A stretch of DNA of 64,000 bases, taken from Actinoplanes subtropicus. GTDB taxonomy: Bacteria > Actinomycetota > Actinomycetes > Mycobacteriales > Micromonosporaceae. The stretch covers positions 310,001 through 374,000 of the forward strand of contig NZ_JOJL01000001.1 in assembly GCF_000721705.1 (NCBI RefSeq), read 5' to 3'. Below the pieces are notes generated by a model that was not told the DNA's origin, ran no database searches, and saw only the letters and a list, made by a program, of their open reading frames with translations. How positions within the stretch are numbered: the first letter of the stretch is position 1; every line of letters begins with the position of its first letter. This document shows, piece by piece, positions 55,701-56,510 of this stretch. A program made the position numbers and the translations under genes.

Positions 55701-55942
55701 ACACCGACGGGACCAGCATCGACGTGCCGCTCACCGTGGCCGACTGGTGTGGCAGCGCGACGCCGGGCACCTCGGTCGCGCTGGCCATGGACCACCGGAT
55801 CAAGGCCGGGCAGGGCGTCGACGGGCCGCCGGTCAGCCTCTTCCAGGTGACCGTCCCGGTGGGCGCCGACGTGCGCTCGCTGACGCTCCCGCCGGCGCCG
55901 AACCTCTTCGTGTACGCCGCGACCTTAAGGCCTGTTTCATGA
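52745..55942 (+). CDS. Secreted GH92 alpha-1,2-mannosidase-type glycosidase
   Basis: 1065-residue exported calcium-dependent exo-alpha-mannosidase family protein. After the signal peptide (RVVLLVATLAVAPVHA) come the GH92 segments VDLVRPFVGTENFGNTFPGA, HLSGVGCG, FSLWDTYR, NNEPDLLAPYLY and GNDDLGTMSAWYVFSSLGLYP, which contain the metal-binding and catalytic acidic residues. The last 280 residues hold a NEW3-like beta-sandwich and a galactose-binding-like domain. The final residues (LRPVS) and stop codon are supplied by the palindromic element at 55926. The start is ATG at 52745; 52727 is possible but places the operator inside the gene. Confidence 0.92.
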   Translation: MMRVVLLVATLAVAPVHAAADPVDLVRPFVGTENFGNTFPGASAPFGMVQVSPDTGGQGGYDYKQSTIYGFSQTHLSGVGCGVAGELPIMPTTGAVTSVDPAAYRSAFAHDDEQASPGYYRVGLSKYQISAELTATPRTGWQRYTFPSTGAANVLFNTGKANQSVFDSAISVVGDRTVEGRVHAGNFCAGKDDHTVYFTAQFDRPFASFGTWRGSTIATGSRDASGTGGNGAFVTFDATADSSVTVKVGLSYTGVAGARANLAAETGDSFDFDQVRASLRASWVAALDKIKIAGGTPDRRAAFYTALYHASLHPNLAGDVDGSYAGFDRAVHRANGYTPYQNFSLWDTYRPQNQLLELLTPAVARDVALSVVAIGRDGGWLPRWALVNSETNIMTGDPVTPFLVEAWSKGLLKGHEQEAYALLRANATSRPPATSPYNGRTGVDYYSARGYLPSGLRLGTDCAAKGGDNDCEHPASATLEYSAADAALSLMAAGLGRKADAAMFARRGQWYRNLWDTSTGQFRPRTVAGTWLTPYDPVGADQQFHEGGAYQYQWLVPQDPAGLVRLMGGRPATEKRLDSFFVYGKLLSDPAGTARNDWIASPYDYYAKPTYNPNNEPDLLAPYLYHWAGAPAKTATVVRAAMTLFTTGPDGMTGNDDLGTMSAWYVFSSLGLYPTMSGANFLAVSSPQFPSAVVSVGGHPLTITAPGASDDNRYIQRVKVDGRGQTRNWIPWSAIGSGGTIAHTLGPVPSSWGTAVADQPPSVDQAPADGRTHLDASIRPASAALAPGGSVTLTVDLVGQAPGVLHPRVAATAPAGWTVSVRQPRPIVSHRLPTAGTATLTVTAPAGAALGSYAISVQVSGAQPVETTASLVVRKPLTCAFEASGQCALDLGSEFTRDGTATVDSPSEGDFDGVGWSYDAALLPAAGPVTWGGVAYNAPSAAGGALNFVQANGQALLLPPMSSAGSLHLIVTSHNGPVSGGLTIGHTDGTSIDVPLTVADWCGSATPGTSVALAMDHRIKAGQGVDGPPVSLFQVTVPVGADVRSLTLPPAPNLFVYAATLRPVS

Positions 55943-56093
55943 CTGAGGCGGGGCTGCGGAGGGGGCCCAGATCCCGTCTGGCGGCGTCCCGCGAAAGCCC
56001 GGTTCCAACACCGGGAGCCGGGCTTCCACGGGCCACCACCAGACGAAATCTGGACCCCGCCTCGCTCCCACCCCAGTCATGAAACAGGCCTTA
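55926..56093. mobile_element. 168-bp palindromic MITE-like element with 20-bp perfect terminal inverted repeats
   Basis: TAAGGCCTGTTTCATGACTG (55926-55945) is the exact reverse complement of 56074-56093. Further in, 55967-56002 and 56018-56053 pair at about 29 of 36 positions, so the whole element is one long palindrome. The ends begin and finish with TA, fitting a TA target duplication as in IS630/Tc1-type elements. It encodes no protein. It supplies the stop codon of the GH92 gene and abuts the stop of the facing gene. As RNA it would form a strong bidirectional terminator. Confidence 0.8.
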
Positions 56094-56510
56094 GTTCACC
56101 CAGCCGTATAGGTGATCGACCCGGAAACGGACGATGAGCCGGCCGTCGGCGACCATGGCGCGCCGGTAGTCGTCCCAATCCGGGTGCTCCTCGCCCCGGA
56201 TCGTCCGGTAGATCTCGATCAGCTCCTCGACCACCGCGTCGTCGAGCGCCCAGGCGACCGGGCTGAGCTCGGCCTTGCCCTCGGCGACCGCGTAGCCGTA
56301 GCCGTCCGGGGCGGTGACCTTCATGCTCACCCGGGCGTCGCGGCGCAGGTTGTGCACCTTGGCGAGGGTGGTCCGGGTGGAGAAGCGGACGAGCCGCCCG
56401 GCCGCGTGGTAGCTGACGTCCGACAGCTGCGGCCGCCCATCCTTCTTGATCGTGGCAACGGTGCCGAGGTTGCCGGCCGCGATGACACTCCAGAGGAGCT
56501 CTTCAGACAT
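56091..56510 (-). CDS. PPOX-class F420/FMN-binding protein (pyridoxamine-phosphate-oxidase fold)
   Basis: 139-residue split-barrel flavin/F420-binding protein. Recognisable segments are NLGTVATIKKDGRPQLSDVSY at the N-terminus, RLVRFSTRTTLAKVHNLRRDARVSM and EEHPDWDDYRRAM. It resembles the TIGR03618 F420-dependent subgroup common in actinobacteria. The substrate is unknown. Its TAA stop falls on the outer edge of the palindromic element, and its start overlaps the upstream methyltransferase by 8 bp. Confidence 0.85.
   Translation of the reverse strand: MSEELLWSVIAAGNLGTVATIKKDGRPQLSDVSYHAAGRLVRFSTRTTLAKVHNLRRDARVSMKVTAPDGYGYAVAEGKAELSPVAWALDDAVVEELIEIYRTIRGEEHPDWDDYRRAMVADGRLIVRFRVDHLYGWVN

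Follow-up and report, generated by a model that had tools for sequence, protein, structure and literature searches.

MITEs with IS-like ends are a known kind of element, and the closest described systems come from Streptococcus pneumoniae and Yersinia. RUP of S. pneumoniae is a MITE with ends matching those of an IS, inserts at TA and is over-represented between convergent genes, as here, but it is paired with IS630-Spn1, whereas the ends of the present element resemble those of the IS5 family (PMC2229807; PMC3049150). YPAL/RU-2 of Yersinia is, like the present element, a mobile palindrome of about 168 bp with filled and empty sites; it is described as having no TA ends and duplications of 3-26 bp (PMC2229807), in contrast to the TA found on both sides of 37/63 copies extracted here (in 26/63 the TA is not intact on at least one side). 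SPRITE, also from S. pneumoniae, is a hairpin repeat near gene 3' ends and enriched between convergent genes, again as here, but its sequence includes a T-rich tract, and a target duplication could not be demonstrated for it (PMC3049150). IS5 is reported to target YTAR, mostly CTAG, and elements of the IS427 group are mostly listed with 2-bp duplications; these encode a transposase, unlike a MITE, and IS5 itself duplicates 4 bp (PMC5493358; PMC3281130; PMC9241763). The literature searched yielded no paper on the MITE family described here, on a single core trading one set of paired ends for another, or on stop codons as MITE sites, and a term search of a MITE review (PMC10969869) found neither 'stop codon' nor 'Actino'.

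A palindrome at the GH92/PPOX junction

The window analysed, a stretch of 64,000 nucleotides from Actinoplanes subtropicus, carries at 55926-56093 (168 bp; letters TAAGGCCTGTTTCATGACTG...CAGTCATGAAACAGGCCTTA) an inverted repeat whose 42-nt arms are 81% complementary and lie 84 nt apart, the outer 20 nt matching exactly. Its sequence, arms, fold and copies indicate a 164-bp palindromic MITE of the full-length class at 55928-56091, with ends termed type A (AGGCCTGTTTCATGACTG), placed between the left copy of a duplicated target TA (55926-55927; the joined flanks give TTAG) and the right copy (56092-56093). Arm comparison and own-genome copies place the left terminal inverted repeat at 55928-55945 (forward strand) and the right one, its exact complement, at 56074-56091 (reverse strand). 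The end 17-mer occurs at only two positions in the window, both of them element ends (chance mean 0.02, allowing up to three mismatches). The region 55920-56100 is predicted to fold into a single hairpin of -122.5 kcal/mol, compared with -69.2 +/- 4.1 kcal/mol for shuffles (z -13). A first-pass annotation had described a whole-length palindrome with TA-flanked 20-bp ends; the ends are seen in the sequence and the whole-length, single-hairpin character stands, but the palindrome is imperfect, with 100/168 positions identical to its own reverse complement in an ungapped comparison. The built-in bidirectional terminator also proposed there is not supported by the letters of the window element, in which no stem is followed by a T run. 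A search of Rfam with the element returned just sub-threshold microRNA look-alikes and one weak CRISPR-repeat match.

The element lies between a GH92 glycosidase gene (TIGR01180; 52727-55942, forward strand) and a convergent F420-dependent PPOX-class gene (TIGR03618; 56091-56510, reverse strand). As the annotation had stated, the end of GH92 is rewritten by the insertion: the gene terminates within the element (...LRPVS, TGA at 55940-55942), its last codons (RPVS, TGA) being element sequence, and the facing PPOX gene keeps its TAA at 56091-56093, the complement of which consists of the element's last T (56091) and the right TA copy. GH92 C-terminal similarity was detected near PPOX in 8/29 of the relatives' PPOX loci examined. 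In two relatives (G198, locus L082; G218, locus L086) the genes are convergent with overlapping stops, the element is absent and GH92 ends in ...SLY, and in a third (G194, L101), which likewise has no element, a few bases separate the stops. An empty site with overlapping convergent genes, as predicted from the window, was thus found in relatives, which supports the separation of the two genes by the insertion. The lost GH92 tail had been given as LVHPAV, a reading of the joined letters that the two ...SLY ends do not support; these ends indicate that about one residue was replaced by RPVS. An alignment of the relatives' junctions with the window flanks after joining, in which a few single-base gaps occur upstream, puts the target TA at the TA of the PPOX stop; the PPOX stop codon is thus the most likely point of entry of the element. 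Since the duplicated TA and the element's terminal A rebuild TAA, PPOX would be left unchanged, and GH92, the stop of which overlaps the site in relatives, would lose its last residue and gain four. Another genome (G176, L083) has a palindrome at its GH92/PPOX junction too, but a different one, about 80 bp long (AAGGTTATTCAGGAC...GTCCTGAATAACCTT).

Copies within and beyond the genome

The host genome (11.26 Mb, 215 contigs) holds two further copies with the ends of the window element, one in full at C46:19287-19452 and one shortened to 48 bp at C7:360778; the total of related loci is about 29. BLAST with the element retrieved more own-genome loci that share the inner part (query nt 26-149 or parts of it) and have other ends. 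A right-hand core motif marks 24 loci, and five short forms do not carry it (C7, C27:146367, C28:5838, C53:20815 and C61:30978); the count of 29 is approximate because some of the 24 motif loci are one-armed or cut by contig ends. Among 26 loci read as the best pattern matches, L131 and L132 have no palindrome. Five contig ends of this genome (C20, C24, C26, C38 and C62) fall inside palindrome copies, where the assembly seems to break.

Element copies are also found in other soil actinobacteria, namely in Actinoplanes-group and Dactylosporangium genomes. An exact 18-mer occurs in 12 stretches of the genome collection, eight with a palindrome in Dactylosporangium or Paractinoplanes and four unrelated single matches, and one copy from the genus group of the host (G230) is letter-identical, flanks included, to a Paractinoplanes lichenicola record (L044, L039). 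The exact type A end 16-mer is present in 7/300 family genomes (reversed control 0/300) and, with up to two mismatches, in 5/7 Dactylosporangium genomes, two of them with one match each (control: one match in one genome). The 16-mer of the B and C end types matched 20/67 genus genomes and its reversed control 42/67, with one to five matches each, so that just the genomes with many and often paired matches (12, 11, 9 and 6) are informative. Plasmids and phages gave no match to the element, nor did plasmids to a C-type copy; among viral contigs, a 17-mer was found in nine, with no second arm visible by eye in the stretch examined, and two more patterns were found in 0 and 2 contigs, the latter two with no second arm within 2.5 kb.

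The 63 extracted copies include one place (L206) twice. Gene context was read for 60 copies, L206 again counting twice: 24 are convergent, 28 tandem, 7 divergent and 1 unclear. Below full length, central deletions give size classes near 91, 53-57 and 24-28 bp, and broken copies and remnants of 21 to 28 bp are still present. The smallest remnant seen (CTAGGGCCTGTCCTGCCCTAG; L248 and L234, G102) consists of a left end closed by the bare right end. A hairpin of about 40 bp in another genus (L046, G136) starts with GGCCTGTTTCATGACT and has a diverged second arm. Flanks shared between copies were noted in three cross-genome pairs; two proved to be similar genes and not one site, and the third an IS701-like element beside the MITE.

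In G106 (L181) the MITE and a TAG-ending gene are separated by an IS701-like unit, whose putative transposase, of the NF041680 family, occupies two frames. The unit is bounded by CTAG-CTTGGATTTTAACC and GGTTAAAGATCAAG-CTAG, the second CTAG being the MITE junction. The same end adjoins MITE copies in G122 (C49 and C136; L199 and L372) and G226 (C26; L374), with arms of types A, A and C, and the IS701-like ends are unlike those of the MITE. As this end adjoins CTAG junctions of the MITE in three genomes, these junctions seem to act as landing sites for the IS701-like element.

The element is short, carries no transposase and has terminal inverted repeats, a target duplication, multiple dispersed copies and an element-free site, in line with its earlier description as a non-autonomous, MITE-like element. 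On sequence grounds, the window palindrome is mobile-element DNA. The other copies on which this description was to stand or fall are those in about 29 own-genome loci and in Dactylosporangium and Paractinoplanes. The probability that it is an immobile local terminator or a chance palindrome is close to nil: no support for immobility is left once copies have been found, and it is refuted by the copies at unrelated loci, the TA at either end and the junctions without an element. A REP/REPIN-type element moved by a RAYT transposase would likewise be palindromic, multi-copy and mainly at gene borders, but such an origin is highly improbable for an element of about 164 bp with ends like those of IS5 and a TA on either side.

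End types and a probable transposase partner

Besides type A, the arms include types A2 (GGGCCTGTTTCGTAACTG), B (GGGTCTGTGTCGAAGTGGG), C (GGG(C/T)CTGTCCTGCCGATCACG) and D (GGGCCTATCTGGTGGATCACG), and single copies have the ends GGCCCTGTGTTGAATC and AGGGCTCGTCTTCTGGATTC. One copy (L229) combines C-type arms with a core like that of type B, as read from alignment A1. Another, in the own genome (L130, C50:97670), has the family's kind of core but an entirely different paired end (AGGGCTCGTCTTCTGGATTCC).

IS ends were screened as TA-flanked inverted repeats of at least 14/18 at 58 IS5-family loci and 30 IS630 loci of the genus. Such repeats were detected at 15/58 IS5-family loci, of which 12/15 match a MITE arm at 0.61-0.90 and the other three at 0.28-0.44; the 99th percentile for random 24-mers is 0.57, or 0.62 when they start with GG. 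The best ends are those of L283 (946 bp; two frames of one IS5 transposase), at 0.90 to type C, and L282 (1032 bp; one IS5 transposase frame of 304 aa), at 0.83 to type A2, so that these two types have ends in common with IS5-family elements; ten others lie at 0.61-0.78. Exact type A ends match IS5 ends at just 0.61-0.67 (variant A2 at up to 0.83), values that denote similarity and not identity and the lowest of which are close to the 0.62 of random GG-starting sequences. No IS with exactly matching AGGCCTGTTTCATGAC ends was found, and exact type A end pairs in 300 family genomes have short spacings only. In the own genome, four PF13340 and seven PF01609 matches are present, none seen with MITE ends. 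No own-genome IS with B/C-type ends was found either: the widest span between facing ends is about 165 bp, and unpaired matches resemble chance or short remnants. A unit of 1.4 kb lying in CTAG and bounded by MITE-like ends (GGGTCTGTCTCGCAGATCATGG; L213:1502-2919, G056:C4) was rejected as an autonomous element; it carries genes for a TetR-type regulator and a DUF6326 protein and no transposase, and looks like a mobile insertion cassette.

The annotation had pointed to an IS630-type transposase as the partner. IS630-type elements of the genus also occupy the TA of CTAG (13/14 with detectable ends, 11/12 with usable flanks), and an IS630 preference for CTAG is the title of a reference in PMC2170065. 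However, at the 14/30 IS630 loci with detectable ends, these ends (GTGTC..., GTGCA..., CAGAGG..., GACACC...) match the MITE arms at 0.28-0.45 in all cases, the other 16 loci having none detectable, and there is only a slim chance that an IS630/Tc1-type transposase moves the MITE. Altogether, the element is very probably a Micromonosporaceae MITE moved in trans by IS5-family transposases, with the TA of CTAG or TTAG as its target and the PPOX stop as the site used in this case. The basis for this explanation is the copies, TA on both sides, element-free junctions, IS5-like ends and stop-codon positions. Transposases of the DUF4096 + DDE_Tnp_1 type would supply the movement, recognising TA-(G/A)GGNCTGT-type ends and inserting into the TA of either target. 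To judge by their size and duplication, these partners presumably belong to the IS427 group.

Stop codons and the matching of arms

Genes were called with a simple codon-usage caller, for which the window and 400 kb of the host genome served as training data. The flank was long enough in 60/63 copies, and 35 of these, with distinct flanks and a TA at either end, gave reconstructed empty sites. The target TA lies within a TAG or TAA stop of at least one gene in 22/35 of these joined-flank sites (B/C-type genus copies have a biased left flank, as their search pattern required CTA before the element), in stops of both strands in 8/35 and inside a called gene in 6/35; in the own genome alone, 5/9 are in stop codons. 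Background YTAR sites fall in called stops in 30/201 cases, or 30/130 non-intragenic ones, and in stops of both strands in 4/201; against the stricter rate (30/130), the excess has P = 6e-7. Autonomous insertions at the same kind of target are in stops in 1/10 cases for IS5 and 1/12 for IS630, together 2/22 (2/21 without L304, an unreliable row in which the repeat pair used is not that element's 969-bp pair; four more IS insertions have too little flank), compared with 22/35 for the MITE (Fisher 7e-5). Every MITE junction rebuilds TAG or TAA, because the element starts with G or A after TA. Since autonomous elements do not show the bias, it is more likely to stem from the survival of harmless MITE insertions than from targeting, although the IS copies compared are few and probably younger. 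The stop-codon bias would then mainly consist of surviving insertions that leave both proteins intact.

The arms of the copies appear to have changed together. In 40 full-length copies (alignment A1), 97.2% of cells are paired, compared with 78.6% in shuffles, and two-sided changes are seen at 30/48 pairs; as these copies are related, the cells are not independent events. When each copy was compared with the arm of its own type (62/63 copies could be assigned an end type), the count was 43 for identical two-arm changes, 44 for changes on one arm and 4 for positions at which the arms had changed differently, whereas independent arms would be expected to give about 1.6 identical double changes (the 43 leave out the 28-bp copy L225, which has overlapping arm windows and 5 paired changes, and become 48 with it; the expectation, 1.55, includes L225). 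Among the cells of the outer 18 pairs, changes affect both sides in 182 and one side in 2; 11 cells are unpaired and 3 are G-U, and the core has one common U-G pair. A single core bears several different end sequences, the arms remaining matched.

Numerous paired changes, a very stable hairpin and the 24/60 copies between convergent genes could also be expected if gene-end copies were domesticated 3'-end structures (terminators or RNA stabilisers) selected for an RNA hairpin. This is unlikely: the T run is absent, broken copies and short remnants persist, and an RNA helix would drift through G-U, against which stand the outer-pair counts. Arm-to-arm copying in DNA appears to fit the paired changes better than RNA selection. 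Template switching at quasipalindromes is reported to make them more perfect (PMC7202029; PMC8604942), and such copying between arms may be what keeps the palindrome, which would also account for the paired changes.

More tentatively, the copies could form a modular superfamily in which a palindromic core swaps paired ends to follow different IS5-type transposases, copies its own arms and resides in stop codons, in many cases a single CTAG or TTAG common to two convergent genes, because TA and a purine end always rebuild a stop; it may have been recruited as gene-end punctuation. If so, it would be a mobile element suited to insertion without altering proteins. The locus exemplifies how the target and first base of a transposon can jointly make insertion nearly harmless to proteins. 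Palindrome copies may account for assembly breaks in such genomes. Together, one core, several end types and many paired substitutions provide a natural data set on the upkeep of matched palindromes in living genomes and on the way in which MITEs change transposases.
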